DNA of 22,342 nt from positions 1-22,342 of the IMG/VR virus record IMGVR_UViG_3300024265_000217, one strand, 5' to 3'. This DNA is from a virus. Below the pieces are notes generated by a model, which saw only the letters and a program-made list of their open reading frames with translations, was not told the DNA's origin and made no database searches. This document shows, one piece after another, positions 3,995 to 22,342 of the stretch (the stretch's first letter is position 1; every line of letters starts with the position of its first letter). Both the position numbers and the translations under genes were made by a program.

Positions 3995-4024
3995 ATTATA
4001 CACTATTATGCAGTCCTTTTCCAA
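3995..4024 (-). promoter_or_regulatory. Possible sigma-70-type promoter for the lysis genes
   Basis: On the minus strand, TTGGAA (4019-4024, four of six bases of the -35 consensus) and TATAAT (3995-4000, perfect -10) are separated by 18 bases. The -10 lies in the short gap between the fibre stop and the XhlA-like start and the -35 is inside the end of the fibre gene. The predicted start of transcription, about 3988, leaves room for the GGGGTG ribosome site. A perfect -10 in AT-rich sequence is common by chance, so this is only a candidate. Confidence 0.3.
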
Positions 4025-7000
4025 ATACTTACCGCTACCCACGGCTGGACATTCGCATGTCCCACATCACTACCTCCGAGCGGATGGTTGTGGGAACTCT
4101 CAGCGTTGTTGGTTGCTGTTTGAGCTACGTTGAACGCTGTTTGGGCTACGTTGCCAGCTGTCCGTCCGCCGACTGCCGCACATGTTTGGTAGTTGGTTTT
4201 ACACTCGTTAGCGCCGGTACCAGTGGTACCAAATGACAGATTGTAATGACTACTGCCACCATTCAGGACTAGGTACTTACCGTTTGGACTATAGATAAGC
4301 GCGGCATGTTGGTGAGTACCTTGCGGGTGGTCGTGGCTATTTTGTGCGTGGGTGTGACTGCTCTGGGTGTGGTTATGAGCATTTTGGCTATGGTTATGTG
4401 ACGAACCGCTCCCAGTGTTGCTCGATGGCAGATTGGTTATACCAAGTGTAACAGTCTCCGCACCGCCGGTATCTCCAAGGTCACCAAAGCTGCCACCATC
4501 AGGACAAACAAGCACTCGACCCTGCCCAAATAGTGCCCACGTCCCGAAGCCAAGCAGTGAGTTCGGGTTGCTTGTTGTATCAGCATTGAAATATAGTGAG
4601 CCAATCGGGTAAGCTGCCTCTGTCTTGTACTGCGGGTGGTCGTCGGGGTCGTTGAGATCGGCAAGCTCGCCGTGGTCGATCTGCGAACCGGCCCCGCCCG
4701 TATGTGCATGTTGTATCCAATCATAGAGCGACAGGCTCCAAGGGGTGACCACGCCGTCTTCATGGAGCATTGGGGCATCCATCCAGAACTCACCGGATGT
4801 GGTTTGGCCGGGTTTTCCTACATGCACTTCTATTATAACGGAGGTACAGTCATCAGTATTAAATGTGCCCGAAACGCCCCGCATCCATATTTGAGAGGTG
4901 CCGATGATCGGGCCGACAGTTGCCAGCAAAGCGCCGCCGTTGTCTTCTGGTTTGTAAACCTGTATGAGTGCGCCATATGCCGATAGTGCTTGTGCTTCAT
5001 AATATAGAGACAGAGAGTAATTGGTATTGGGCTTGACAAAAACTTCCTGATGTGCTTTGGCATCGGTAGCTCCCCCAGAGTTGTCACAATAGAATGACTT
5101 GGTGCCAAACTTATAGGTCGCCGAAGAGGATACTATATTGGCGCTGCCGGAACCACCAACCACCCAGTCACTTATGATCGGGGTACCCTCCGATTGGTAG
5201 CCCAGATTGAAACCTACCAGGGTGGGATTAGCAAAGCCATCATAGCTGGTCAGGTTCTCTCGTACCTGTATGTATCGGCGCAAGGGAACAACCTCAAAGT
5301 TGGTTGTCCAAGGAGACCAACTGCCTGTGCCGGTTGTAGAGCTACGGAATGTGGAAATTATTCCTGTCTCGCCTGGTTGAATAGTATTGTGCCTAAATGT
5401 CCAGTCATCCGGCGTAGCAGTCAAATCATTCTGCATAGTGATATAGCCCTCGCCGGACACCAGTAAGCGGTCGAGCATTATGACAGACTGCTCTGGGTTA
5501 GAAGTCGATGGGTCTACCCAGTAGTCTTGTTGTAACCTCAAAGTGTGGGACGTGAGAGGGTCTAGCCCTTTGATATGCTTAACGGTCTCTTGGTAATCAT
5601 CCGCCGACTCATAAAGGTTGATTGGTGACCCAACAACATCCTCGCCGTCCAGTATAACGTGTATGTTCCCTTGGTTCGGGCCTTTCTTTGTAATGATATC
5701 AACGCCGCGTCGTCCGGCTGGTATTGTGTAGTCAACATAGGGCTGGGTCTGGCCATAGGCGGAAACAACCGAAAAAGCATCCATAAGTAGCTGGCGACCA
5801 TTGAATGCGTTACCAAAGAAGCCTGCTTTTCCAGTTCGATCACCAACACCAGGGACAATAATAGACAAGCGTTTCGTCCAGTTGGCAGCATCAGTTGATG
5901 TGTAAGCAGTCACTAAATGGTGGTCATATTGTAGGCGCATGTAGTACCAGGTATTGTTGGAGAGTGAAAGATCGCCCGTTGCTTTGATGCTTTGGTTGCC
6001 ATTATTGAGAGTCATCGTTCCGTCGCCTACCCAGAAGCTTGTCGTCCAGTAGCTACCATCTTGGTTAGCATACCGGCGACCGATACCAAATGCGGTATTC
6101 GCCCAGTCGTTCGATCTGAACCGAGTAATCACAGCGCTCGAATCAAGCTCCGCAGAAGTGAACAAGCGATTGTACATGGCTCCAAAAACAATGCTAGACC
6201 CGGTATCACTTCTCACGTAGTTGTTATATATGCTGCACCGGTTCTTGGGCCAGGTTGGTAACCAGTTTAGCCAACTGCTCCCCAAGGGGCCGTTGCTACG
6301 GGAGAAATTGTCGGCTGCTCTCATTGCTATTGCTCGCTCAGCTTTCCGAGCAGAACCGCCCCAGTGACTTCCGTGGCTGTCCAAGCTCCAGCTCCCGACA
6401 TAGTTGAGATCACCGTCCTCGTTGTCCTGCACATCAATGGCGGTCGGTGGGTTGGTCAGCTGCACATCTTCACCGATCACTGAGCAGTTGGACAAGGCCA
6501 CTCGTTTCGGTTGTGGGTCACTTACATCATTCCACTCGGCGGCGGTGTCTGGTATCCAGTCGGTTGGTGGGACAACACCTTCCGTTTTCTCAAACGATGA
6601 ATTGACGATGGGGTTGATCGCGCCGGGCAAAACACCTCTGACTATGCCATCAGCTGATATACCGTCCGTGTCGATAAGAACTGACTCGTCGCCATCCTCA
6701 ATATAGATGGCCCCCTTACGGAATATGGCTATCCGTTGGTTCTCCTCGTTGGCGTTGAACTCCATATTGATTGCGGGGTCGGAGCTGTTTATGATCTTCA
6801 ACCCATCCTTGTCCAGTCGGACGTTATTGTCCTTGGTGGCAATTATGATCTCGTCGGCGTTAATCGTTCCAGTGCGTAGCTTGTCACCAGACAGGTCTTC
6901 GATCATTTCATTGGTGATCGAGGTATTGGCGATATAGTTACCCCCTTGTATCAGAGGTGGTGGTTGGTTCACTATTCCTACTATTCGGAGTTCGTCCGGC

Positions 7001-7050
7001 CCCCCGCTAACAGGTACGGGAATGCCATAGTCGCCAGGTCTTTCAACCAT
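4006..7050 (-). CDS. Tail fibre / receptor-binding protein with collar-type tip
   Basis: 1014 residues. The N-terminal 150 carry a tail-attachment-like segment with TGTINADEI (60-68), a phrase common in phage fibre and J-like proteins. Residues about 247-435 look like a concanavalin/LamG-type sandwich (FSRSNG to MDAFSV). Residues about 640-790 look like a CBM4_9-type carbohydrate-binding module (GTKSFY, FWMDAPMLHEDG). From 814 a collar/short-fibre-like region begins (YPIGSLYFNAD, GFGTWALFGQGRVLV), followed by a His-rich HxH stretch (884-914) and the ending VQPWVAVSIWKRTA, typical of phage baseplate and fibre tips. It should be the trimeric adhesin of the virion. It starts behind a GGGGGG-type ribosome site and is preceded by the GH26-like gene. 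Confidence 0.88.
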   Translation of the reverse strand: MVERPGDYGIPVPVSGGPDELRIVGIVNQPPPLIQGGNYIANTSITNEMIEDLSGDKLRTGTINADEIIIATKDNNVRLDKDGLKIINSSDPAINMEFNANEENQRIAIFRKGAIYIEDGDESVLIDTDGISADGIVRGVLPGAINPIVNSSFEKTEGVVPPTDWIPDTAAEWNDVSDPQPKRVALSNCSVIGEDVQLTNPPTAIDVQDNEDGDLNYVGSWSLDSHGSHWGGSARKAERAIAMRAADNFSRSNGPLGSSWLNWLPTWPKNRCSIYNNYVRSDTGSSIVFGAMYNRLFTSAELDSSAVITRFRSNDWANTAFGIGRRYANQDGSYWTTSFWVGDGTMTLNNGNQSIKATGDLSLSNNTWYYMRLQYDHHLVTAYTSTDAANWTKRLSIIVPGVGDRTGKAGFFGNAFNGRQLLMDAFSVVSAYGQTQPYVDYTIPAGRRGVDIITKKGPNQGNIHVILDGEDVVGSPINLYESADDYQETVKHIKGLDPLTSHTLRLQQDYWVDPSTSNPEQSVIMLDRLLVSGEGYITMQNDLTATPDDWTFRHNTIQPGETGIISTFRSSTTGTGSWSPWTTNFEVVPLRRYIQVRENLTSYDGFANPTLVGFNLGYQSEGTPIISDWVVGGSGSANIVSSSATYKFGTKSFYCDNSGGATDAKAHQEVFVKPNTNYSLSLYYEAQALSAYGALIQVYKPEDNGGALLATVGPIIGTSQIWMRGVSGTFNTDDCTSVIIEVHVGKPGQTTSGEFWMDAPMLHEDGVVTPWSLSLYDWIQHAHTGGAGSQIDHGELADLNDPDDHPQYKTEAAYPIGSLYFNADTTSNPNSLLGFGTWALFGQGRVLVCPDGGSFGDLGDTGGAETVTLGITNLPSSNTGSGSSHNHSQNAHNHTQSSHTHAQNSHDHPQGTHQHAALIYSPNGKYLVLNGGSSHYNLSFGTTGTGANECKTNYQTCAAVGGRTAGNVAQTAFNVAQTATNNAESSHNHPLGGSDVGHANVQPWVAVSIWKRTA
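4115..4156 (-). repeat. 21-bp tandem duplication in fibre tip coding sequence
   Basis: Two adjacent 21-base copies differ at four positions and encode the repeated peptide NVAQTA-F/T (about residues 965-980 of the fibre). The copies lie in the Asn/Ala-rich linker between the HxH stretch and the final SSHNHPLGG segment. Such in-frame duplications let fibre tips change length; whether this one is recent is not clear. Confidence 0.7.
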
Positions 7051-7063
7051 TATCTATCCCCCC

Positions 7064-8575
7064 TTACCATATGCTGTAGTCTTTTCCGCCACCCATAATG
7101 TCCCCACCCATTGGGCCACTAACACCCATAGGCATTTCAACCAAGTTATAGGTTAGTATGTCCCCCTCAAAGAGGTCTCTGCTCTGGGTGACCTTTGGTA
7201 GTGCAACAAATACCCATACGTTATCTTCTACGTAGCTCCTGTCCTCGAAGTACATCCACAAGTTGCCATCTATCGGTACGTTGGTCAGTATGTCACCGTC
7301 CAGTGAGATGGTTCCTTTCTTCTCTTCTATTGGTTTCGGCGTGGTAGGATTGTTCCCCAGACCAAGTATTTCAGAGTTGTTCGCGTGAGCTACCCGGTGC
7401 ATACAGCTGGAGGTACCGCACCATTGGCAGTTCCGTCTAAAGAAGGCACCTGCTTTGTATGCCCGAGTGGTATACGGGGATTCGTTGAACATATAATTGA
7501 TAGTGTCGTCGCTTGGTTCCTTCATGTTGAACCAGGATGCTCCGACAAACCTGTTATAACTGCCACTTTGTAGCCAGTACCAAGCGTCCTCTATCCATAA
7601 GGGTTTGTTACCGCCGGTCGAGTTGCAACCTATTTCACAGATGAACAAGTCTTTGGCCGATTGCTCCGTGAACTCATTATAGCCATAGGAAAAAATCTCC
7701 TCGAAGCTCCGCCAGAAGCTCCAGGTAACCGCTCCGAAGTTGTAGCCGTTCATGCCTATGATGTCCACGTAGGCATCCCCGGGGTAGTAGTCTGTCCAGC
7801 AACTTGCAGCGTCCGTGCTGCTCAGTGGTGCCACCGGGCACCATATCCACTTGAGATAGTCATTAGCTCCCCCTGCTTCCATCCTGCCCCAGAGGTGTTG
7901 CCAAGCTGCTCGATAATTAGCCGGGGTATTGCCTGCATACACACCGGCACCCCAGGTTGTCCAGTCGCCGTTCATTTCGCTCATCGGTCGAATGTAGATC
8001 ACGTAGTCATTGGCCGAGCAGAAGGCCACTATACTAGCAGCCCATCGGTCGAAGTCCGCGTCATGGGAGCCGCCAACATAAGTATTGAGCGCCCACTCCG
8101 CTTGATCGTCGAAGTCTTTGGCTGGGTTCTTTGGCTCGAAGGCAAGCTGGAGCCACATCCCTCGCTCGTAGAGCCAGTCGTACCATGGATAGGATGACAT
8201 GCCTGTTTCAGTAGCCGCTTGGTAATTGGTGACACTGTATATCGGGTTTTCAGGGCCGACCATAGCGTTGAGCTGGGGAATATTGATTCGCGGGTCTACC
8301 CCGTCGCCGCAGTAGAAACCTATCTGAAAGTCGGCCTTAGCACCTCGCTTGATGTTATCAAAAGCGATACTTCCGAAATCGGTGGAAATGTCCGCGTACT
8401 CCATCTTTTCGGTGTTGTTGATCTTTATGTATCCCAGGTTGGGCGAAAAGGCAATCGTGTCATCGACGTTAGTTAGGTCGGCACCATCGACAGGCCACAG
8501 TCTGGTTATGTTAGCGTTTAGCTGAGTCCTTGGGGACTCAGTTGTTACATTCATCAGATGGGCGGTATCAGACAT
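7064..8575 (-). CDS. Tail-associated GH26-like glycoside hydrolase
   Basis: 503 residues with a TIM-barrel-like core from about 84 to 375. It opens with a strand (FQIGFYCG), and has YIRPMSEMNGDW (194-205), where E200 fits the acid/base of GH26 (family pattern R-P-x-H-E-x-N-G); the usual His before the Glu is Ser199 here. DIIGMNGYN (271-279) follows, then LFICEIGC (310-317), where E314 fits the nucleophile, and RFVGASWFN (342-350). GH26 enzymes are beta-mannanases and related endo-glycanases. A CxxC-x4-C cluster (383-391) and a C-terminal beta domain (about 415-503) follow. The position between hub and fibre indicates a virion enzyme cutting host surface glycan; the true substrate is unknown. 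It starts 2 bases after the hub stop (GGAGAGG ribosome site). Confidence 0.78.
   Translation of the reverse strand: MSDTAHLMNVTTESPRTQLNANITRLWPVDGADLTNVDDTIAFSPNLGYIKINNTEKMEYADISTDFGSIAFDNIKRGAKADFQIGFYCGDGVDPRINIPQLNAMVGPENPIYSVTNYQAATETGMSSYPWYDWLYERGMWLQLAFEPKNPAKDFDDQAEWALNTYVGGSHDADFDRWAASIVAFCSANDYVIYIRPMSEMNGDWTTWGAGVYAGNTPANYRAAWQHLWGRMEAGGANDYLKWIWCPVAPLSSTDAASCWTDYYPGDAYVDIIGMNGYNFGAVTWSFWRSFEEIFSYGYNEFTEQSAKDLFICEIGCNSTGGNKPLWIEDAWYWLQSGSYNRFVGASWFNMKEPSDDTINYMFNESPYTTRAYKAGAFFRRNCQWCGTSSCMHRVAHANNSEILGLGNNPTTPKPIEEKKGTISLDGDILTNVPIDGNLWMYFEDRSYVEDNVWVFVALPKVTQSRDLFEGDILTYNLVEMPMGVSGPMGGDIMGGGKDYSIW
8522..8541 (-). other. Perfect 8-bp inverted repeat near start of GH26-like gene
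   Basis: Two 8-base arms (CTGAGTCC and GGACTCAG) flank a 4-base loop, lying 34-53 bases into the coding sequence of the GH26-like gene. In the mRNA the loop would be CCAA. It is G/C-balanced and stable enough to form, but lacks a U-run, so it is not an intrinsic terminator. It may affect translation of this gene or be chance. Confidence 0.5.
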
Positions 8576-8576
8576 G

Positions 8577-9785
8577 TTAGCCTCTCCTTTTCAGTTTGAA
8601 CGAGAACGGATAGTCCCTATTTATGGTCATCGGTGTCTTGAAGTCCAGCGGTATGGTCACTTTGCCTACCTTGAACACACTGACCGAGCCACCATTGGGG
8701 TAACCAGGCATCCCATACTTTATAGGGTCTCTAACCCTTACTGTATCATACTCTTCTATATGTGGCAAAACCAGGCAGGTAGCTCCTACCGAATAAGCCG
8801 TCCTTTGTCGGTCACGTAGCCTGTTCTTGGCAATGGACAGCGCCACATCATACCGCTTAACGTTAGAGTTTGACATGACCTCGACCTTCCATTGCTTAAT
8901 ATACATCTGATCGAGCGGGTTGCTTTGGTCACGTGCTACAGCCCGTACTCCCGAAGCCCCCAAGAAGACGACCACGTTTATAACACTTGTGAAGTCAAAT
9001 TTACGATTGGGCCATTCAACCAATAGGTCTCCATCTATCTCAAAGTTCACTGCGCTGGAGTTCCGGCGTAGGCGCACGTCACCATACCCGTCATAGTACA
9101 GAGTCATATTGGCAGCTTGCGCGATCTTCTGACAGACGGCCCACGGTACATCGTTCCAGCGGATGAGTAGGTCATTCGGTAGTCGGTTGCCGTAGCCCGG
9201 AATGCGGTACATCTGCTCGCCGTGTGTTCCAAGTATATAGCGGATGGCATCTGTTACCCGCAGTCCCTTCCAGAGCTGCTTGTTTGACCCAAGAGTGGGT
9301 GACCACATGCACGGCTCAAGGTACCGAGCGTCTTTGCTCAGTGCAGACAGGGTAACGATGTCCCTGGTTTTTTCTACAGTGGCCAAGTGCCCGCTAAATA
9401 TGGGGCATTCCATCCAGCCGCCATTCGAGGGGTACCCTGGTACGTGTGTACGATACCAAATCTTGACCATCTTCTCTGGCGATAGCCATCTTTTTCCATA
9501 GTATCCGAGGTCATACTCATTTTTGGCATCCACAAAGCTCAAGTCCAGCTGCCGGGTTGGGGCGGTCTGGGTAGACTCTATGGATACCTGGCCTTCCACC
9601 ACGTTTGCTTGGTCTACGTTGAGGCTCTTAACAACATCCTCTCTGATCGACGGATTGACCCAGTTCCATGGGTCTGCCCACACGGGCTGTAAGAACTCAA
9701 TACGGAAGGCTACCCGGGCATTGTTTTCTAAGGCTGACTGCATCAGCACTCTATGGGCGTGTGAATACCAAAGTGGATAAGACAT
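8577..9785 (-). CDS. Baseplate hub / tail-associated protein (gp27-like)
   Basis: 402 residues from ATG 9785, which overlaps the stop of the upstream gene (TAATG); the frame is open 18 codons further upstream, but there is no reason to use that start. The central part follows the pattern of phage tail hubs: strands with a HLATVEKTRDIVTLSALSKDAR segment (133-154), then AIRYILGTHG (180-189) and WAVCQKIAQAANMTLYYDGY (215-234) followed by GDVRLRR. This matches hub proteins in which two split beta-barrel domains flank a helical insertion. The protein would cap the tail tube and hold the fibre and enzyme. It sits between the Dit-like protein and the GH26-like enzyme, the expected place for a Tal/hub. 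Confidence 0.75.
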   Translation of the reverse strand: MSYPLWYSHAHRVLMQSALENNARVAFRIEFLQPVWADPWNWVNPSIREDVVKSLNVDQANVVEGQVSIESTQTAPTRQLDLSFVDAKNEYDLGYYGKRWLSPEKMVKIWYRTHVPGYPSNGGWMECPIFSGHLATVEKTRDIVTLSALSKDARYLEPCMWSPTLGSNKQLWKGLRVTDAIRYILGTHGEQMYRIPGYGNRLPNDLLIRWNDVPWAVCQKIAQAANMTLYYDGYGDVRLRRNSSAVNFEIDGDLLVEWPNRKFDFTSVINVVVFLGASGVRAVARDQSNPLDQMYIKQWKVEVMSNSNVKRYDVALSIAKNRLRDRQRTAYSVGATCLVLPHIEEYDTVRVRDPIKYGMPGYPNGGSVSVFKVGKVTIPLDFKTPMTINRDYPFSFKLKRRG

Positions 9786-11041
9786 TAGCTTGGCACCGTC
9801 AACATTTCTGGGATTGTCCATTCCCCGACTTGGTAGCAATCAATCGAAACCTCATACCAGTGGGACTTGACAGGTCTGAGCCGGAGGTTACTTATTATGA
9901 CCGGGAAGGACATGCCTTGCCCGATAAACATAATCTTAACCTCACCAGTGTAGCCATACAGGATTTCCAAACGCCTACGGTACTCGTCGCCGCTGAGTCC
10001 TGCAAAGTCACGGATATGACCCTCAATCGTGAACTCATATCCTGGCGGAGCCGTGGACTTCACTATGGGTTCTCGCCTACCAATGGGCCGCAGTATCTCC
10101 ATGTGTTCTGGCGTTTTGAACTCGATCAGGCTATCCGTCGATGTTCGGATACAAGTCGCCAGACTCTCGCTTGTTGGGCTGAATCGGTTCCCGAAGCTCC
10201 GACGTGTCGGTATCAACCACACTCCGCGGATGTGATACATAACATAGCCCGACTTGTACCAGAGGGTTTGCCCTTTGTTGCCATACGGGTAGACCCAGTA
10301 CGTGAGTTGGCCGCTCCCGGGGGCGTAGTGATCGACAAACGCCCAGACCCCCGAGTTGACGCGGAAGACCATTGACCAACCGGGGTTTTTCCACCAACCG
10401 GCACCGTATCCGCCGCCGCCATCCCAGTAGTAGACAGCATTGCCCCATGGGTAGGGGTTTCGACTGTCCATCGGAGTGCCGAACGCATAGCGGCTGTGTT
10501 CCTGACTGGTTGCCAGCATAGTGAGCCTGTACTTACCAGTTGCAACACATCTATAGTTTGGTGTTTCACTCACCCAAGCAAAGCTTGTTGAGCCGCAAAG
10601 CTTTCTCTCGCTCTGCCAGACTAGAACACCGCTCGGATTCCATATCTGAAAGCGCAGGGTCTTGTTCGACCGTCCTGCCGGTGTCTTAACCTGGAAGGAA
10701 AAGTCGCGGATGATCTGGCCATAGTTACATGGGACTGTCTGCCCACGCTGCCGTATCGAATAGGTTCCAAAGATTTGGTTGCTGTCATTATAGTTTGCTT
10801 GGATGTACCGCGGAACAAAGCCGGGCACGTAGTCCCACTGGGTTCCGCCGTAGGATAGGGAGCTGGTACGCCGCAACATGGTATCGCCAGTCTGTCCACT
10901 CCAGTGTCGGTTGATCTGGAAGCCGTGAGTATAGTTCATCTGGTATTGGCTCATCGACCAAGCAATGAGCATTCCCGGGCGACCTTTCATCGTCCCGTGG
11001 TAGCGTGGTATTACTGTTATGGGGCCAGCGTAAGAAGCCAT
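9785..11041 (-). CDS. Dit-like distal tail protein with beta-sandwich region
   Basis: 418 residues starting at 11041, overlapping the previous stop by one base (TAATG). The C-terminal part (about 305-418) has the features of a distal tail domain: strands EFTIEGHIRDFAGL, a short helix DEYRRRLEILYG, strands VKIMFIGQG, VIISNLRLRPV and HWYEVSIDC. The larger N-terminal half (about 60-290) is Trp/Tyr/Gly-rich and beta-like (FQIWNPSGVLVWQSE, YRLTMLATS), similar in style to the glycan-binding domains carried by 'evolved' Dit proteins. It should form the ring linking tail tube to tip. The assignment rests on pattern and position; a general minor tail protein is the alternative. Confidence 0.6.
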   Translation of the reverse strand: MASYAGPITVIPRYHGTMKGRPGMLIAWSMSQYQMNYTHGFQINRHWSGQTGDTMLRRTSSLSYGGTQWDYVPGFVPRYIQANYNDSNQIFGTYSIRQRGQTVPCNYGQIIRDFSFQVKTPAGRSNKTLRFQIWNPSGVLVWQSERKLCGSTSFAWVSETPNYRCVATGKYRLTMLATSQEHSRYAFGTPMDSRNPYPWGNAVYYWDGGGGYGAGWWKNPGWSMVFRVNSGVWAFVDHYAPGSGQLTYWVYPYGNKGQTLWYKSGYVMYHIRGVWLIPTRRSFGNRFSPTSESLATCIRTSTDSLIEFKTPEHMEILRPIGRREPIVKSTAPPGYEFTIEGHIRDFAGLSGDEYRRRLEILYGYTGEVKIMFIGQGMSFPVIISNLRLRPVKSHWYEVSIDCYQVGEWTIPEMLTVPS

Positions 11042-13716
11042 TAGATATCATCCCTATAGTAGTCATATGAGTCATCGTCTAGTAAGTCCATTTCTATCTC
11101 TTCTATGTCAGTTGCCGGGAAGGGTACGTTCGGCCCCCAGACATCGAAAGCATCCATGTCGATCACGTAGTCCGAGGAGCCAGCGTTTTTGGTGTGCGTA
11201 CATACCACCTTGATGGTGTGGGTCTTTACCACTCCGACAGACTCTTCCTCTTGCAGGCCGTCGATTGCAAACAGCTCTTGCTGCCACAGTTCGCCACCAG
11301 CGTTGTAGCAGTCAACCGTCCCCTGGCTCACCCCGTCTATAAAGACCTCGGCGATACCATGGTCGTCGTCCTTGGCACCAATCCACTTGACTTCGGTGCC
11401 CTCGAAGGTGTATTCCACATAGGCATCCAACTCGTCTGTGTCGCTGTACAACCCGTTGCTAGCTCTGTCGATCTCGGCTTCCATGCCGTTCCAAGTCCCT
11501 GAGAAGGTCAGATCGCTCCAGTGCTCTTCGTACCTAACCCAGCCGGTAGTCTCATCGAATTGCAGGCCGGTGTCACTCCCGTCCCAGTGTACTTCAAACT
11601 CCATTTCGTCTTCCCCATAAACGGGCGCATTTTCAATAGCCTCCCGGGGGAGATCGCCGTCTTGAGCCTTGACGACTATCTTATAATCGCCGTCATCCTT
11701 AATAGCCCCCATGGCTACCTGGTGAGTCAGAACGGCGCTTGGTGTCAAACTGTGCAGTCCGATCTGTTCCCAGAGTGTGGTGACCGTATTATATTTCCAA
11801 AGTTCCCGGGCAACATAGGCTTGGTTGCCGTTACCGCCGGGCGTGAACGTATGGGTGATCTCGGGGAGCCTACTGGACACAGCTTTATTAACCCCTAACC
11901 AATCAAACTCTACACCGTGAACGATGTCCGTTGCCAAACCACCCATGTCGCATATCACCCGTATCGGTACCGTTTCGGTCATGTCTATCTGGTACTCAAA
12001 TTCGTAGTACTCCGCGTCCTCGTCTATTTCCTCACTCTCACTAAGATATTCCGTCCAGGGAGCCTCCGCTCGTATGACCCTGAACCGAAGTGTCGGGTCG
12101 GTAAGGCTCGCCGTTCTCAGCTTGGCACGGAAGATCAGCATGTCCCCGTCGGTTACTGAGCCAGCATCTTTGTATAAGCTGATGTCGGTCAACGTGCTGG
12201 CACCGTTGTAGATGGTTACCCCACAAGTCATCTCTTCCTCTTCCTCACCGTAGAGGCTCGTCTTGATCGCCGCCGAGCCGGGCAGATGCCAGGCTGTTCC
12301 CGGCGAAGCCCCTTGCTCCAGCTGTAGCCTATCGGCATAGAAGGTGCAACCTTGCTGGATGTCGGTAACCACTCGTATCCGCGCCTTAACGCCGGTTGCT
12401 CCAAACGCTCGGCTTACGGAGTACCGAGCAAAGTCGTCCGGCGGGGTCGGGTCGAGGTCAACTGCTTGCTGAGTGGTGCCGATCAGTCCGTCCCCGGCAT
12501 TGTACTCACTTATTTCCAACCAGACAGTAGCGTCCCCGATCAGTTCAACGCTTGCCGTGTGGGTCTCACTGGGCGCAACGTCTATCGAGGGAATTTCAAA
12601 GCCCTCGTCTGCCGCCGAGTCGTCGGTGACTGTCTTCAAACTGTATGTGCCCTCGGCTGCTTCCGTGTCGCTCCGTGATATAGTTGAGCCTAGCAGGGTA
12701 AAGCCGGTGGTATCGGTCTCAACGCTTGCCTGGTTCTCGGTTACGACATTGGTGTCCGTGGCATCAAGCGTCCAATCTGCAACTCCAGATGCAAAATCAT
12801 GGTTGGTGGGCATACGGGTATTGGCGTTGGCCGGGACAGTGATCGCCACCGTTGGCAATGCCAACGTGGTGAAACTGCCCGGGTCACTCCAGGGTGACCA
12901 CACGCCATAGCTGTCCCCAAGCCGGATGCGCCAGAAGTATTCGGTACCGACGACCAACACCGGGTTTGGTTCGATCATGTAGGATGATTTGTTGGTGGTG
13001 ATAGTCCCCGAGTCATAGTCTGGTGCCGAGAAGTCATTGGAGTCATGCAACTGAATTTGCAACTTTGCACAGAAGTCCTCTGGGTCATCCTCCACAAACA
13101 ACGCGCTTAAAACGGGTGTGAGCGTCCCGATAATGGTTCCCATCGGGCGCAAGTCCTCGGGTTGGCGAGGTGGTACGGAATATTTGAGTTCGATATATGG
13201 TCTGATGTTGGGAACTGAATTATGCCAGGAAGCAAAGATACACTCCGAGTCCTTATTAACCGTTATCTCGAAACCAAACCAAATAAACCCGTCGGTTTCC
13301 CGGTTGTCTGCTACAGTCTGAATCATGTCCTTGATATCTATTTGAATGTAGGTACCGGCCACCGCGGAGGTGAGCAGTGTTGCCTTGTTGGTTTCGGTTA
13401 CAGCTGGTTCGTCATTATAGGTAACTCCATTGAAATCCCAGTCCTCGGTAATCCGCCTAACGGACACGGTTGTATCGACTGGCAGGTTTTGAGCCACGTA
13501 CAGGTTGAGTACCGCCTGGCTGATAAACAGGTTCTCGTTGAGGGGGATGACACCACCCTTGGCCTCAGTAACCGGCGTGAACATATAAATAGATTTGTCG
13601 TTACCACCACCGCCGGTCGTCATTTTAGCGTACAAGCTGTCCTTACCATAGTAATTGGTATCAGGCCAGTCAACGTGTGTATATGCTGAGAATCCCCGTT
13701 CTAAATTAACAATCAT
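11041..13716 (-). CDS. Large multi-domain tail protein rich in carbohydrate-binding modules
   Basis: 891 residues. Residues 1-182 look like a DNRLRE/CBM96-type domain (AVLNLYVAQ, VSVRRITEDWDFNGVTYND). Residues 184-285 look like an FN3-type domain ending FWRIRLGDSYGVWSPWSD. Residues about 303-480 resemble CBM4_9 (NHDFASGVADW, FYADRLQLEQGASPGTAW), and a second similar sandwich lies near 490-640. The C-terminal part (about 765-870) has YTFEGTEVKWIGAKDDDHG and AEVFIDGVSQGTVDCY, a galactose-binding-like fold. The extreme C-terminus is very acidic (DLLDDDSYDYYRDD). No catalytic motif is visible. It begins directly after the tape-measure stop (TAAATG). Its likely role is binding surface polysaccharide at the tail tip. 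Confidence 0.7.
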   Translation of the reverse strand: MIVNLERGFSAYTHVDWPDTNYYGKDSLYAKMTTGGGGNDKSIYMFTPVTEAKGGVIPLNENLFISQAVLNLYVAQNLPVDTTVSVRRITEDWDFNGVTYNDEPAVTETNKATLLTSAVAGTYIQIDIKDMIQTVADNRETDGFIWFGFEITVNKDSECIFASWHNSVPNIRPYIELKYSVPPRQPEDLRPMGTIIGTLTPVLSALFVEDDPEDFCAKLQIQLHDSNDFSAPDYDSGTITTNKSSYMIEPNPVLVVGTEYFWRIRLGDSYGVWSPWSDPGSFTTLALPTVAITVPANANTRMPTNHDFASGVADWTLDATDTNVVTENQASVETDTTGFTLLGSTISRSDTEAAEGTYSLKTVTDDSAADEGFEIPSIDVAPSETHTASVELIGDATVWLEISEYNAGDGLIGTTQQAVDLDPTPPDDFARYSVSRAFGATGVKARIRVVTDIQQGCTFYADRLQLEQGASPGTAWHLPGSAAIKTSLYGEEEEEMTCGVTIYNGASTLTDISLYKDAGSVTDGDMLIFRAKLRTASLTDPTLRFRVIRAEAPWTEYLSESEEIDEDAEYYEFEYQIDMTETVPIRVICDMGGLATDIVHGVEFDWLGVNKAVSSRLPEITHTFTPGGNGNQAYVARELWKYNTVTTLWEQIGLHSLTPSAVLTHQVAMGAIKDDGDYKIVVKAQDGDLPREAIENAPVYGEDEMEFEVHWDGSDTGLQFDETTGWVRYEEHWSDLTFSGTWNGMEAEIDRASNGLYSDTDELDAYVEYTFEGTEVKWIGAKDDDHGIAEVFIDGVSQGTVDCYNAGGELWQQELFAIDGLQEEESVGVVKTHTIKVVCTHTKNAGSSDYVIDMDAFDVWGPNVPFPATDIEEIEMDLLDDDSYDYYRDDI

Positions 13717-16700
13717 TTATCTGTATCTACTCCTCAAATCCCGGCGCTTGGTCTGGTCATAGTAGTCAACGCCTTCACCAACTGTCTCGATCATGCCTTC
13801 CCGTAGGTTGATAATCTTGAACTTGGTGCCTGTGGGAATGGTCGCTGTTACATCTACCTTATTATATATCGAACCGGCTCCAGCGGCAACCTTGGCAAGC
13901 GGTTGGGCCAGATCGCTGAACCAACGATTTTGTTGCAGGGTCAAGACGCGCTCGCCAGCATGGAGAGTCGCCGACACTTGACCGCCACCCTTATACCAGT
14001 TCTGCCTGTCGTGGGCAGCAAGCGCGTTTGTCGCGTTGCCATACTTGCCTGTGATGTAACTAAACCCAGCTGCTATTTGCTCACCAAGCGTACTGTTCAT
14101 ACCCTTGGGCAGTAACCCGCCCGGCCTTGCATGGAGGTTCAGCATGAACTGGAACAAGCCCCAAGCGTCCGAGGTCGGGTTGTCTGCTTGCGGATTCATA
14201 CCTGACTCTCGCATAAGTAGTTCATGGAGTGCCGGGTTGTGAGCGCCTTGTCCTCTTTCTGAGAAGTAAGAAGCAACCTGGCTCCAAACGTCACCACCAG
14301 CACCGGGAGCCGGAGCCTTGGGAGCCGCCAGGTTCCTCAGAAAATCAGAGATCGCAAGGATAGCGAAGTGAACGTGGTCGAAGTGGTTGCCTCCGATCAT
14401 GGACTTCCAGATTAACTCGCCAAACTGGTTGTCAACAATGCCACCGGCAAAGCCCGCAGGCCCACCGATCAGCTGTGAAGCGAGACCGGCGATCTGGTCA
14501 CTACCAGGCGCTATATCAATAGCAAAACCGCTACCGTGGTGGCCGGGGTCACCTGGACGATAGCCGGAGGTGATTGAGTGCCCGCCGCCGACCTTAGCCA
14601 TCAACCAATTGAAAATGGCCTGCATCAATGCTTGACCAGGAACCAATGGTACACCGGCAAGCTCACCAGTACCGCCACCCTCTGGTGCCCCTGGTTTCGG
14701 TGCCAGGAAATTTCCTAGAGCGTTATATAGTTCCTCGGAGTTGGGTATTTGTAGGTACTCATTCAGGAAGTCCCAGCCCTTGTGCTTATTCATAAAATCG
14801 AAGAGGTGTTGGGCGAAGCCACGTATGCCTCCGAAGTTCTTGGTCATAATGGCCATGACCTGCTCAAAGTTCATACCCTTGATTAGGCCCATAATCATCT
14901 GGCTACCAATGTTCTGGAACTCCCTCGATGGTGATGCAATACCCAAGCGCTTTTTAACAGCGTCGATCAGTCTGCTAGCCAGTACTCGACCGGCTTCCGC
15001 CATGTAGGGTGCATTCAACTTGAGGAGGTTGCTGGCATGTTTTGGCCAACCTTTCAACCACTTGCCAAATTTTATCATTAAGTTGGTTGCATTCTTAACC
15101 ATCTTTTTATACATCGGTACTAACGCTTGCTGGATGTGCTGTGCCTTACGGGACAGCATAGCCTTCCGTTGCATCCGCGGAACTCTCGCTAGCCACCTGT
15201 TAAACGCCTTGAAGATTTTGACGATACGCCGGGGGAGTACCTTGACTATCTTGGTATCCTCATTGACCATAGCCTTGAAGTGGCGGCGCATGATTGCCCG
15301 CATTCGCCTCATATTGATACCTGACAGAAAGCCCCTCCGCACGTTCGCACCCATGGCCTTAAACTCAGTCGATGGTGACTTGATGCCGAGCCGTTTTCTG
15401 ATGGCACCAACGATGCTGTTACCAAAGTCATAGCCACTCTTCCTTGCACCCTTCTTAAGCCCCTGCTTGAAGCCTCTCTGAGCGGACTTACCGGCTTGCC
15501 TACCAGACTTTTTCAGTCCCTTGGAACCCTTCTTGTATCCTTGGTCGGTCTTCTTACCGGCATCTTCCCCCGCCTGTTTGCTGCCCTCTCTGCCACGGCT
15601 GATAAAGCCCTGTATCATATTCTCAGCAAGCTTCCGCCCAGTTTCCCACATTTCACGGACATTCTTGAGGATAGTATTCTTGAACCAGCGCGGTATGTGG
15701 GCCAGGTAGTTGTCGCTAAATACTGTTATGATATTTTTGAAACGAGTGACCGCTCCGGTGACCGGCGTGACGAACATAGTGACAATGAAGTTACCCCCGG
15801 CAGCAACCGTATTTGCGAAATGCTCCGGCAGTCCACCCAGCCATCTGGCAAGTGCCAACATTATATTTTGGGTGCTAACCACCATGCCAGTGAGGGCAGG
15901 TACCAGGGCAGTGGTCAATGGCGCGGAGTTGTTCCGCATGGCGAACGCCTGCTTTGCCGGGACACCAGCTAGCCAACCGATCAGCCCACCTTGGATGCTT
16001 TGGATGACTGAGGTTTGTTGGTTATGTCCCCTCGCTACCTCTTGTGTATGGTTGGCGTGTGACCGGCGGAGTATCATGCCGATCAAGCCACCGTGGGCAC
16101 GTTGGTTCGATGCTTCCTTATTCCGCTCGACCTGCCTAATGTTCCCCATCAAGCGTTGGTGATCTTTTTCCTCTTTTATCTCTCGCTTGTGTTGCTGTCT
16201 GCGGCCCTTATCGAAGAGCGCTCGGGCCATGCCCTTACGCAAGACCTCCGCTTCCCAACTCTCGGTGTATGCCTTACCAGCCTCTTTACCCCCCTTACGT
16301 TCCTGTTCTATATTTCTGCGGTTGCGATCATCGAACATTCTATAGCGCTTTTTGCTGCCCTTCTTATGCTCGTCCTCGCTTGAATCCTCAAACGCTCTGG
16401 CGGATGCTTCACCCCCCTTAGCACTCTTCTTCTCGCCCTCGTTCATAAACTCTTCCATCATGGCCATGGTGCCCTCTGCTACAGCTTTCTGAACCGCTAT
16501 GATCTGCTTACCGCTGTCTAGTACCATGTCTTTCATAGCGCCACCGATCTCATTGGCACCATCTGTCATGTTCCTGACTCCCTCTGCCATTAGGGAACGG
16601 TTGCCAGTGAAGAAACCGCGCAGGATTTGAGAGACACCATAGATGATCTTCCCGAGACCGATGAAGCCCTTGATTATTGCAGTGATGATATTGATAAGGA

Positions 16701-18228
16701 TTATCAGGATGATTGCCAACCCACCGAATGCTCCCAGGAGAACTATACCGACAATGATCGCTAGCTTCTTAAGTGCCGGGAGGAGCATTGGTTTTAGGAT
16801 AGCCCACAACTCGCCAAAGGTTTTTTTCAGTGTCTTCCACAGCTCATTAAGCGACCCCATCACTGGTTGGAACACTTTTGCGAACTTGTCCCAGTTCTTG
16901 ATGACAACGTAGATAGCGGCAGCTACCGCCAAGATGATTAGCAAGATGACCCCGAAGGCTACCCCCATGCTTATTCCCGCGGCGTAAGCCAAGGCAGCGG
17001 TTTTCAAGAAGACAAACTCATATATCCCCGCTATCCCAGCGGCTACTGAGGCATATTTCAGTATGGCAAATTTACCCAGCCAGCCGAGTATCAGCATTAG
17101 TGGCCCAACCAGGGCGATCAAGGTCAGCATTGTGCCTATGGCCGCTAGGATAGGGCGTGGTACCTTGTCCATCGAGTCGGCCCATTTATCGGTATAGTTA
17201 GCCGCCCGTTCCAACACGGGAAGAATGATGTCCTCGAATGCGTAAATGAATATCTTGCCTATCGGCTCGAAGAGACCAAGTATCTTCTTGCCCAGCATCT
17301 TCATCCGATCACTGAGCTGCATGGTCGCGTCTGCGGTTTTCTTGACAGTGCCTTGTGATTGCTCAAGCTTCTCTGTCCATTTGTCTATATTGAACGTGCC
17401 CTGTCGGATAGCGGCAGCTATCTTCGGCCCAGCCAAGCGACCAAAGATGTCAATGGCGATTGCCGTGGCCTTCATGTCGTTAGGCGCTTTTTTGATCTCA
17501 TTTATAAATGACCGCAGACCCTCTTCCCCAGTTTTGAACCCTTCTTGAGCGGCAGAGGCGGTTGCCATACGCAGAGCGTGTGACATATTCTCTACCCCTA
17601 AGCCCGCCTTCTCAAAGGAGGCAAATAGAGCGATCTGTTCCTTGTAGTTAAAGCCCAGTTTTATCATCATTTGGCTCTGAGCGTTTAGGTTAGTTAGAAG
17701 CAAGTCTAGTGGGACACCCGTTCTTTGGGCAGCAAGGGCTATCATATCCATAGCTTTCGCTTGTTTCTTGCCCCTGATCTCATTTTGTTGGAACCACATA
17801 CCCAAGTCACGGCTTGCTGTTACTGGGTCTGCCCCGAGGATACGGGCAAAGTCAAGCACCTTCTTGGTCATTCGGTCAGCGGCCTTACCCGTCTGGTCGA
17901 AACGTTGTTCAACGTTGATTAGGACACCGGCCACAATCTCGGAGTCTTCTGGCACGTCACGCCAGACCTTACGGAAGCGCACCATTAACTTATCAAGCGC
18001 TTTGCCTGTGTACCCGAGCTGGCGAGCGACAAGCATATAGCCCTTGCCGATCTCTGCCGCGGCCTTATAGCCGATGGCACCCATGGCGGCAATGGGGAGG
18101 GTCACGTTTTTGGTAAGCATAAGCCCAAGACCAGACATTTTGTTACCGATCTTGGCTATCTGATGGAGGAATGTGCTGTCCCTCGCTATGATGTCAACCC
18201 ATAGGGTTCCTAAATGTGCATCAGGCAC
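13717..18228 (-). CDS. Tape measure protein with M15-like peptidase and SLT lysozyme domains
   Basis: 1503 residues, by far the longest gene, as expected of the tape measure. GTG 18228 is the start, with GGAGGAGG 9 bases upstream, overlapping the GT stop. Hydrophobic, membrane-spanning-like segments lie at about 357-385, 413-440 and 486-520, for the DNA-entry channel. A motif KSPS/ASPS-x-x-F-x-x-x-G occurs at about 948 and 1098, a known tape-measure repeat. Residues 1217-1290 look like an M15-type zinc peptidase (SGYRPGDPGHHGSGFAIDI and HFDHVHF). Residues about 1320-1420 look like an SLT transglycosylase (LLMRESGMNP, E1341; DAWGLFQF). Near the C-terminus is HAGERVLT. Both enzymes would cut peptidoglycan during infection. 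Confidence 0.93.
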   Translation of the reverse strand: MPDAHLGTLWVDIIARDSTFLHQIAKIGNKMSGLGLMLTKNVTLPIAAMGAIGYKAAAEIGKGYMLVARQLGYTGKALDKLMVRFRKVWRDVPEDSEIVAGVLINVEQRFDQTGKAADRMTKKVLDFARILGADPVTASRDLGMWFQQNEIRGKKQAKAMDMIALAAQRTGVPLDLLLTNLNAQSQMMIKLGFNYKEQIALFASFEKAGLGVENMSHALRMATASAAQEGFKTGEEGLRSFINEIKKAPNDMKATAIAIDIFGRLAGPKIAAAIRQGTFNIDKWTEKLEQSQGTVKKTADATMQLSDRMKMLGKKILGLFEPIGKIFIYAFEDIILPVLERAANYTDKWADSMDKVPRPILAAIGTMLTLIALVGPLMLILGWLGKFAILKYASVAAGIAGIYEFVFLKTAALAYAAGISMGVAFGVILLIILAVAAAIYVVIKNWDKFAKVFQPVMGSLNELWKTLKKTFGELWAILKPMLLPALKKLAIIVGIVLLGAFGGLAIILIILINIITAIIKGFIGLGKIIYGVSQILRGFFTGNRSLMAEGVRNMTDGANEIGGAMKDMVLDSGKQIIAVQKAVAEGTMAMMEEFMNEGEKKSAKGGEASARAFEDSSEDEHKKGSKKRYRMFDDRNRRNIEQERKGGKEAGKAYTESWEAEVLRKGMARALFDKGRRQQHKREIKEEKDHQRLMGNIRQVERNKEASNQRAHGGLIGMILRRSHANHTQEVARGHNQQTSVIQSIQGGLIGWLAGVPAKQAFAMRNNSAPLTTALVPALTGMVVSTQNIMLALARWLGGLPEHFANTVAAGGNFIVTMFVTPVTGAVTRFKNIITVFSDNYLAHIPRWFKNTILKNVREMWETGRKLAENMIQGFISRGREGSKQAGEDAGKKTDQGYKKGSKGLKKSGRQAGKSAQRGFKQGLKKGARKSGYDFGNSIVGAIRKRLGIKSPSTEFKAMGANVRRGFLSGINMRRMRAIMRRHFKAMVNEDTKIVKVLPRRIVKIFKAFNRWLARVPRMQRKAMLSRKAQHIQQALVPMYKKMVKNATNLMIKFGKWLKGWPKHASNLLKLNAPYMAEAGRVLASRLIDAVKKRLGIASPSREFQNIGSQMIMGLIKGMNFEQVMAIMTKNFGGIRGFAQHLFDFMNKHKGWDFLNEYLQIPNSEELYNALGNFLAPKPGAPEGGGTGELAGVPLVPGQALMQAIFNWLMAKVGGGHSITSGYRPGDPGHHGSGFAIDIAPGSDQIAGLASQLIGGPAGFAGGIVDNQFGELIWKSMIGGNHFDHVHFAILAISDFLRNLAAPKAPAPGAGGDVWSQVASYFSERGQGAHNPALHELLMRESGMNPQADNPTSDAWGLFQFMLNLHARPGGLLPKGMNSTLGEQIAAGFSYITGKYGNATNALAAHDRQNWYKGGGQVSATLHAGERVLTLQQNRWFSDLAQPLAKVAAGAGSIYNKVDVTATIPTGTKFKIINLREGMIETVGEGVDYYDQTKRRDLRSRYR

Positions 18229-20624: not shown

Positions 20625-21503
20625 TTAAAAATCCGAGTAGACATCCAGCAACCCCTGGAGGAGGGTGCGGACGTTATCCGGTAAGTCTTTCGTCATGGCA
20701 TACACTTGGGTTACCTCGTCGATGGTCTCCTTCTTGGTGGACGCTCCACGGTTGTAGAAGAGATCGGTCATCCAGGTCATTTCGGCTAGCTTTATTCGCT
20801 TAACCAACTCGGCGTAGTCGTCGCGGAGCGACAACCCGCTGGTGTAGGTAACCAACCACCGTTTCTTCCCCTCTGGCCATAGCTTGGCTTCATTATTGTA
20901 GAAGATTTGGCCCGTGGTGGGGATGAGCCGGTACATGCCGTCGGCCTCGTCAAGGTCAACGTCCCAGATGTCATCATGGACAGTGATCTCCTCGCCCTCG
21001 GCTACACTCACCGGGATGCGGGGTATCTGCAAAGTCTCGTACCCGCCATCCAAATAGATGCTTGCCTCCTGAGCCACTATGTACCCGCTCAGGTTCTCCT
21101 TGATAGTTGCCTCAATCCCACTGAGCATGGCGTGGAGCAAAGCGTCTTGGTCGGTATCCGACTGAGCTATACGGAGGAAGTCCTTGGCCTCTGCCAGTTC
21201 AACGAGCGGCGCGATTGCCAACGCGGTGACAACGAGGAACGTGTCCTCGATTGAGTTCTCAATTGTGCCTCCGGCCATGAACTGGTAGGAGTACGTGCCA
21301 GGTGCCGCCAGGCTAACGTCAACATAATATAGCCCGGTGCCGTTTGTCTGTAACTCTATGTCCTCCCCGAATGTGTATGTGATCTTGCTCCCTTGATCTA
21401 CCCGAAAGCTGAAAGTTAGGGTGGTAGGGTCAGTCAGCACTTCCGCGTTGTTGCGAAACTCTGCCGAAATTCTTAGCACTTGTCCTGTAAAGTAAGTATC
21501 CAT
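20625..21503 (-). CDS. Head-tail connector with N-terminal Ig-like domain
   Basis: 292 residues from ATG 21503, which has GGAGG five bases upstream; an ATG at 21515 overlaps that site and is rejected. Residues 1-95 form an all-beta, Ig-like unit (QVLRISAEFRNNAEVLTD, TYSYQFMAGG). The rest has the gp6-type connector pattern: a helix-loop start LVELAEAKDFLRIAQSDTDQ (about 100-119), DALLHAMLSGIEATIKENLS, and a C-terminal helical bundle ending in LLQGLLDVYSDF. Stand-alone connectors are usually about 100-200 residues, so the N-terminal domain is an addition that could be displayed near the neck. Confidence 0.78.
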   Translation of the reverse strand: MDTYFTGQVLRISAEFRNNAEVLTDPTTLTFSFRVDQGSKITYTFGEDIELQTNGTGLYYVDVSLAAPGTYSYQFMAGGTIENSIEDTFLVVTALAIAPLVELAEAKDFLRIAQSDTDQDALLHAMLSGIEATIKENLSGYIVAQEASIYLDGGYETLQIPRIPVSVAEGEEITVHDDIWDVDLDEADGMYRLIPTTGQIFYNNEAKLWPEGKKRWLVTYTSGLSLRDDYAELVKRIKLAEMTWMTDLFYNRGASTKKETIDEVTQVYAMTKDLPDNVRTLLQGLLDVYSDF

Positions 21504-21550
21504 CGTATCCTCCATTATAGCTTTATTCTACCCCTATGTCTATCGCTCCC

Positions 21551-22342
21551 TTAGTGTTCGCAGTCTGAGTTGGCTGGTGGACGGCTTTGTGTAACCGTCC
21601 CACCACCTACCACACTCCTGCCGGTGGTAACGTATCCGAGCTGGCGTTGCCTCAACTCGATCAAGCTTGCACTCGCTGAGGAGGTACTGTTTATAGCCAT
21701 TGTGAATATTGACCCCACCTTGATATTGAGCGCGGGGACATTGCCCGCTCCAGCTGTCGCTCCGCTGAACTTTGCGGGGGACAGGAAGAAGGGTGCTGCC
21801 GTTGTGCTGGTTCCTGTCGTTATCCCGGCAATCCCCCTGATCGGTCGGAACGTGGAGGTAGTTGTGGAAATACCGGCGGAGGCTCCACTGATCTTACGGG
21901 TTGCCTTGGGCAGGGCGCTAACCATTGCTGTTCCCGCGCTTGCGCCACCCACTTCTCTTATAGGTCTGACTGTTGCGGCTACAGCGGCGATACCGTCCGC
22001 ACTGCCAGCCAGCTCCATGTTCAACTTGAAGCTCGCTCCCACTGCCACCTGTCCGTTGGACGTGCCGCTGTAGGTTGCCAGGTTCTTTATACTCGCCTGG
22101 GCTGTCGAGCTGCCCGCTGAGCTGCCGCCCAGATAGGTGGCGGACTCAAATAGTGCGCTTACTGCGGAGGTGCCGTCTGCTTGACCGGCCAGCTTCATGG
22201 TGAGCTTGAAGCTTGCGGCTACGGAGGCTATGCCATTCGCTTGTCCACCGAGCCTGGTTCTTGACTGCCAGTTGGCTCCGGCGGTACTACCCCCGGTAGC
22301 TGTTCCAGCTAGCACCATTATAGCGGTGAAGGCTGGAACAGC
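21551..22342 (-). CDS. Repeat-rich structural protein (partial, N-terminus beyond window)
   Basis: The frame stays open to the right edge, so at least 263 residues of a longer protein are visible; the ATG at 22318 is internal because the repeats continue before it. About ten 20-residue repeats are rich in Ala, Gly, Ser and Thr, with hydrophobic-x-Gly-x-x-x-Gly at the start of each (LAGQADG, LGGSSAG, VGGASAG, ISGASAG, FSGATAG). A 55-residue non-repeat tail follows (SIFTMAINSTSSASAS and a Gly-rich end). No catalytic motif, Cys pairs or membrane helix is seen. It lies between the expected capsid genes and the connector, so a head decoration or fibre-like structural role is plausible but not shown. 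Confidence 0.65.
   Translation of the reverse strand, partial: AVPAFTAIMVLAGTATGGSTAGANWQSRTRLGGQANGIASVAASFKLTMKLAGQADGTSAVSALFESATYLGGSSAGSSTAQASIKNLATYSGTSNGQVAVGASFKLNMELAGSADGIAAVAATVRPIREVGGASAGTAMVSALPKATRKISGASAGISTTTSTFRPIRGIAGITTGTSTTAAPFFLSPAKFSGATAGAGNVPALNIKVGSIFTMAINSTSSASASLIELRQRQLGYVTTGRSVVGGGTVTQSRPPANSDCEH
21710..22342 (-). repeat. 60-bp (20-codon) degenerate tandem repeats
   Basis: About ten copies encode 20-residue units; eight in a row are exactly 20 residues and one is 21. The DNA copies are strongly diverged, but the Gly at unit positions 3 and 7 is almost fixed. Two units three copies apart share the phrase SFKLxM and a related DNA stretch, hinting at block duplication. 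Confidence 0.8.

Follow-up and report, generated by a model that had tools for sequence, protein, structure and literature searches.

A GH26 enzyme encoded in a siphophage tail module is sister to Thermoleophilia enzymes and is a candidate coat depolymerase

The mechanism with one acid/base and one nucleophile Glu is established for glycoside hydrolase clan GH-A. In the β-mannanase branches A and B of family GH26, the residue before the acid/base Glu is a −1-subsite His (His-200 in BoMan26B), conserved at 97% or more, whereas neither the xylanase branch of GH26 nor another branch, whose function is unknown, conserves the His of this "HE motif" (PMC6556568). In Xyl88, an active β-1,3-xylanase of GH26, Tyr142 precedes the proton donor Glu143 (PMC7563424). 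GH26 genes are already known in phages: a GH26 mannanase is among the auxiliary CAZymes reported for mangrove soil viruses, with Actinobacteria as the predicted hosts (PMC6460857). Among cellular bacteria, a GH26 protein (WpsE) was described within a Wzx/Wzy exopolysaccharide cluster of Actinoplanes, and its authors were aware of no earlier characterised case (PMC13390465). In a limited literature search, we found no report of a GH26 enzyme acting as a phage tail enzyme.

The window, that is, the whole stretch of DNA that was analysed, is a virus record of 22,342 bases with a GC content of about 51%. Its minus strand reads, in order, a head–tail adaptor (phrog_442), a tail completion protein (phrog_5), a tail terminator, the major tail protein, a phrog_2115/Phage_TAC_11 protein, the tape measure protein, an 891-aa protein carrying CBM96/DNRLRE and Ig domains, a 418-aa protein that had no matches, a tail protein (phrog_1887), the GH26 enzyme and a 1014-aa Gp10_C protein. 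The genes that frame the enzyme are as follows.

13717..18228, minus strand: tape measure protein of 1503 aa; a stretch near its C terminus weakly resembles transglycosylases (SLT)
11041..13716, minus strand: tail/virion protein, 891 aa, with CBM96/DNRLRE and Ig_Rha78A domains
8577..9839, minus strand: tail protein (phrog_1887), directly upstream of the GH26 gene
8581..8590, minus strand: Shine–Dalgarno sequence of the GH26 gene, AAAGGAGAGG, within the 3' end of the upstream tail gene
7064..8575, minus strand: GH26 gene, 503 aa, an intact ORF with its ATG at 8575 and TAA at 7064–7066
4006..7050, minus strand: tail fibre/baseplate-like protein, 1014 aa, with a C-terminal Gp10_C domain, directly downstream of the GH26 gene

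The run of genes on one strand, from the head–tail adaptor through the tape measure to the fibre-like Gp10_C protein, bears out the tail location given in the preliminary description and places the GH26 gene in the tail-tip/fibre stretch of a siphophage tail module. Only 1 nt separates the stop of the upstream gene from the GH26 start, and the strong Shine–Dalgarno sequence lies 5 nt ahead of the ATG. When both 420-aa tail proteins were searched against the PDB, no convincing match was obtained, and a viral scan with the 8577–9839 protein found none. The 891-aa protein (window 11041–13716) had a weak match to a phage head spike fibre and is a second carbohydrate-related part of the tail. When the tape measure was searched for traces of the host, only short, local Thermoleophilia matches appeared, near its C-terminal end; the stretch at about 1328–1419, which has the weak SLT match, was 39–44% identical to proteins in three Thermoleophilia genomes. 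It is a possible muralytic domain of the tail and gives a faint hint of the host.

The enzyme itself was divided into the following parts.

8333..8575, minus strand: N-terminal region, residues 1–81, low-confidence model, no detected homologue
7418..8326, minus strand: GH26 (β/α)8 catalytic domain, residues 84–386, from the AF2 model and its Foldseek match to 2V3G
7979..7981, minus strand: Ser199, at the position of the −1-subsite His of GH26 mannanases
7976..7978, minus strand: Glu200, the predicted acid/base, opposite E109 of CtLic26A in the alignment
7958..7960, minus strand: Thr206, at the position of a −1-subsite Phe in mannanases and a Tyr in CtLic26A, covarying with position 199
7634..7636, minus strand: Glu314, the predicted nucleophile, opposite E222 of CtLic26A in the alignment
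7067..7417, minus strand: C-terminal region, residues 387–503, low-confidence model, no detected homologue

The protein belongs to GH26, as shown by its Pfam score, its sequence matches in the PDB and its predicted fold. It matched PF02156 (Glyco_hydro_26) with E=3.1e-11 and 43.6 bits, against a gathering cut-off of 20.2, and its top sequence match in the PDB was CtLic26A, the Clostridium thermocellum lichenase (2BV9, E=8.6e-24). The AF2 model contained a (β/α)8 barrel over residues 84–386, with strands 1–4 at 84–88, 128–131, 141–146 and 193–197 and strands 5–8 at 241–245, 272–279, 310–317 and 343–349; pLDDT was mostly >85 for residues 170 to 350 and low for residues 84–140 and both termini. 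With Foldseek, the best match was the GH26 lichenase 2V3G (E=1.5e-22, TM(target) 0.84), and ranks 1–7 among PDB entries were all chains of GH26 lichenase. A fold search of BFVD gave no close GH26, with a best TM(target) of 0.54, and the gene was not recognised by PHROGs or NCBIfam. Neither the N-terminal nor the C-terminal region had a convincing PDB match, nor did either contain a recognisable virion-attachment domain.

CtLic26A is thus the closest solved relative by both sequence and fold. In the alignment, E200 and E314 correspond to its E109 and E222 (numbers counted along the chain as printed), which we take to be its catalytic residues (Taylor et al. 2005), and Ser199 corresponds to His108. 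In the model, E200 lies directly past strand 4 and E314 within strand 7. The gene coordinates, the RPMSEMNGDW and FICEIGC motifs and the numbering of S199, E200 and E314 in the preliminary description, which named no strand, were correct, and the barrel fold and the predicted active-site placement of both glutamates agree with its assignment of a GH26-like enzyme. Neither outcome that it listed as refuting, a fold other than a TIM barrel or an alignment with E200 and E314 outside the active site, was seen. The two proteins also have in common the NGDW, YPGD and GYN motifs, at about 26% identity, and differ in that CtLic26A is a cellular enzyme with His108 and a Tyr where the phage-encoded enzyme has Ser199 and Thr206. 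Both catalytic Glu residues were invariant across 14 relatives; across 32 relatives, E200 was invariant and E314 was conserved in at least 90%. R196, N202, W205, W208 and Y278 are retained as well. The mannanases BoMan26A, BoMan26B and CjMan26A (branches A and B) have in common with the window enzyme the fold, the Glu pair, the Arg before the motif, the Trp after it and the Tyr on strand 6, but they match it with a TM(target) of only about 0.45–0.6, and their conserved −1-subsite His and Phe (H200 and F207 in BoMan26B) are both missing, replaced by S199 and T206.

The enzyme therefore lacks the HE motif, with Ser in the usual place of the His, as had been noted. Since that motif is not conserved in every GH26 branch, its absence is no ground for placing the enzyme outside the family. 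Of the 146 rows of related domains that we gathered, His preceded the acid/base Glu in 23 of the 64 from bacteria and 37 of the 82 from viruses. These tallies are biased: the window protein itself, or a profile centred on it, served to collect the rows, the genomes sampled were all from the phylum of L004, and the viral rows include some near-duplicate contigs and MT836699 (L003), which looks bacterial rather than phage. At this position, the bacterial rows had H, P, W, Q, C, A, S, G, N or T and the viral rows had H, W, Q, S, F, N, R, L, C, P or D. On a tree of 111 domains, parsimony required 24 switches between His and non-His, of which at least 11 were forced by well-supported branches. Ser arose separately in two tail GH26s (L133 and L136) and in one bacterial protein (L144). 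Scans of viral contigs with Ser patterns yielded no further GH26, the matches being mostly short chance frames.

In the same tree, in which the bootstrap was not fully settled, the window enzyme was sister to ten GH26s of Thermoleophilia (Actinomycetota; L004, L040–L043 and L137–L141) with support of 99/96. CtLic26A, represented by a fragment, fell in a different clade. The branch leading to the window enzyme was long, at 1.45 changes per column, with at most 37% identity to any relative in the tree alignment; local identity to the sister clade reached 45%. The motif RPM[SCNPG]EMNG[DN]W[TV] is common to the clade and the window enzyme, and the sister-clade residue at position 199 is Cys, Ser, Asn, Gly or Pro, with His in none of the ten. 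One of them, L004, carries an identical RPMSEMNGDW. Because Ser is shared with L004, and the whole sister clade is without His, Ser199 is ordinary within its clade and probably not a phage invention. The earlier suggestion that the enzyme is unusual on account of Ser199 alone is not supported, given that His is found in under half of the 146 rows, that Xyl88 has a Tyr at this place and that the sister clade lacks His altogether.

The position of BoMan26B Phe-207, which also lines the −1 subsite, is Thr or Val in the whole sister clade. Among rows with a readable motif, His at 199 was paired with an aromatic residue at 206 in 47 of 50, while a small residue at 199 was paired with a non-aromatic one in 21 of 29. 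The Fisher p-value for this coupling (8e-10) ignores shared ancestry, and we relied on the tree instead, where the small, non-aromatic state required six changes, at least four of them forced. Judging from these repeated changes of both residues together, the −1 pocket seems to have been remodelled as a whole on more than one occasion.

The sister-clade proteins are cellular, some with LGFP or Ig domains, and their genes lie in exopolysaccharide and cell-surface clusters, unlike the tail-encoded window enzyme. In five of the ten loci (G447, G240, G357, G312 and G463), the GH26 gene is beside a UDP-GlcNAc 2-epimerase and DUF2334::GT2, a fusion of a DUF2334 polysaccharide deacetylase and a family-2 glycosyltransferase. 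A polysaccharide deacetylase occurs in six of the ten, with one locus in both sets. None of these three genes was found at the 18 GH26 loci of other clades. When 399 genomes of the class were searched, DUF2334::GT2 adjoined GH26 in seven (G240, G283, G312, G357, G414, G447 and G463); G414 and G283, which are beyond the five sister-clade genomes, had long DUF2334::GT2 matches by the GH26 gene. The synteny is partly inherited, because the sigma-70, TPR and redoxin neighbours are likewise conserved. The GH26 gene of L004 sits among secreted LGFP-repeat cell-surface enzymes, including an amidase, a SpoIID-like protein and a glucosaminidase-like protein. From these neighbourhoods, we read the sister-clade enzymes as envelope or exopolysaccharide hydrolases acting on an amino-sugar polymer. 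The GC content of the window (51%) is below that of the sister-clade loci (54–61%).

In the locus with GH26, the epimerase and the DUF2334::GT2 fusion (L163:7624–15208, L166, L167, L168 and L169), the epimerase of L163 had a weak GGDEF match; the Thermoleophilia locus is possibly a c-di-GMP-linked exopolysaccharide locus, of which we found no description. Several Thermoleophilia genomes (G646:C83, G660:C37, G727:C269 and G728:C175) have clusters of two to three or more GH26 genes, and Trp precedes the acid/base Glu in the ones that were inspected.

Taken together, these observations suggest that the protein is a retaining endo-β-glycanase from the lichenase-like (CtLic26A-like) side of GH26 and serves as a tail-borne depolymerase of the siphophage against an amino-sugar coat of an actinobacterial host, a reading that we consider fairly likely and that agrees with the depolymerase role proposed from the outset. 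Associated with the tail tip or a tail fibre, the protein would act before or during adsorption. By alignment and fold, E200 would donate a proton to the leaving oxygen and E314 would attack the anomeric carbon, and the exchange of the −1 His for a small residue and of the aromatic for Thr or Val would widen the −1 sugar pocket. The most likely substrate would be a β-linked envelope or exopolysaccharide containing amino sugars of the GlcNAc/ManNAc type, because the sister-clade genes sit in exopolysaccharide loci with an epimerase and a deacetylase/glycosyltransferase. By cutting such a coat, which the enzyme probably helps the phage to do, the particle would reach the cell surface. An unusual substrate had been proposed on the ground of Ser199; that ground alone is not supported, while the proposal remains plausible through the coupling with residue 206 and the exopolysaccharide genes of the relatives. 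The substrate may also have drifted from that of the sister clade, since the window enzyme is on a long branch. Further points against this reading are the GC content of the window below that of the sister-clade loci, the short and local tape measure matches, the inherited share of the synteny and the lack of a recognised attachment domain in either terminus. We infer the activity, the substrate, the presence in the virion and the host of this phage. The N terminus (residues 1–81) is possibly the part that attaches to the virion, and our preferred reading carries a tension of its own.

GH26 is not known to act on amino-sugar substrates, which also counts against it. A more far-reaching reading, which we regard as tentative and unlikely, is that the Thermoleophilia enzymes and the phage enzyme form a clade whose −1 subsite was rebuilt for 2-acetamido or 2-amino sugars and which cleaves the exopolysaccharide made by the epimerase/deacetylase::GT2 locus, the phage version being a tail depolymerase taken from, or co-ancestral with, a host exopolysaccharide hydrolase.

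The gene might instead be an auxiliary metabolic gene, made during infection or simply carried along, whose product breaks down plant glucan or mannan from the environment on the host's behalf. The mangrove soil virus mannanase was interpreted in this way, the two GH26 genes of phage GX15bay lie among glycosyltransferases outside the tail module, and the nearest solved enzyme is a lichenase. We consider this unlikely for the window gene, which is tightly packed between two tail genes. No signal-peptide-like stretch was present at its N terminus (maximum 15-residue Kyte–Doolittle value 0.25), unlike in a secreted host enzyme, which counts for a tail role, and other viral GH26 genes adjoin tape measure genes.

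An equally unlikely alternative is that the protein is a GH26-derived receptor-binding module that holds the host glycan and hardly cuts it, the loss of the −1 His and aromatic residue reflecting relaxed catalysis. The alteration of two mannanase-conserved −1-subsite residues (S199 and T206) and the long branch would fit this, but both catalytic Glu residues and R196, N202, W205, W208 and Y278 are retained, the same substitutions are seen in secreted bacterial enzymes with both Glu residues intact, and Xyl88 is an active GH26 without the His. Still less probable, and in our view very doubtful, is that Ser199 is a rare substitution that alone sets a new specificity: the position belongs to the −1 subsite and holds a nearly invariant His in the mannanase branches, yet outside the mannanases it is highly variable in bacteria and viruses alike, and Ser has arisen there independently of the window enzyme in L133, L136 and L144. 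A tail depolymerase against an amino-sugar coat remains our preferred reading. If correct, GH26, mainly known for plant mannan and glucan, would also provide phages with a means of attacking bacterial coats, and one bacterial clade of the family would act on a new class of substrate, linked to a biosynthetic locus that can be identified; the Thermoleophilia locus offers a concrete substrate to test. The comparison also cautions against classing GH26 genes of viruses as auxiliary metabolic genes without regard to gene context and against judging GH26 members by the HE motif.

A short Cys cluster, CQWCGTSSC (window 7403–7429, residues 383–391), lies at the end of the GH26 barrel and is possibly a metal or disulfide knot joining the catalytic domain to the C-terminal region.

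A profile scan of viral contigs detected 69 loci with GH26-like genes, while a single-sequence scan of IMG/VR returned no close relatives of the window protein. A tape measure gene was within a few genes of GH26 in six or more further viral contigs (L079, L084, L094, L110, L134 and L136), and the GH26 of L133 is probably near one as well. The contigs L127, L133, L134 and L136 encode, at about 9.0–12.0 kb, large tail proteins that contain a GH26-like domain and an FH[SN]EMN/ECN motif. Like the window enzyme, these tail GH26s are encoded a few genes past the tape measure and have Ser or Asn before the Glu; unlike it, they lie inside proteins of 790–1000 aa, form a separate clade with an FH[SN]E motif, and represent a separate origin of Ser/Asn at this position. 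The GH26s of GX15bay and the mangrove soil virus are likewise from tailed phages, but they keep the His, lie among glycosyltransferases and are interpreted as auxiliary metabolic genes. In GX15bay (L002:8441–10888), the two adjacent GH26 genes near a run of glycosyltransferases resemble a small glycan locus. Lastly, a GH26 with a lipoprotein-like signal start (L014:7199–8182) was found in a phage head gene cluster, not in a tail module; its contig has terminase-, portal-, protease- and capsid-like ORFs, and the repeat protein and adaptor that follow the GH26 resemble those at 21551–22342 and 20625–21515 of the window.
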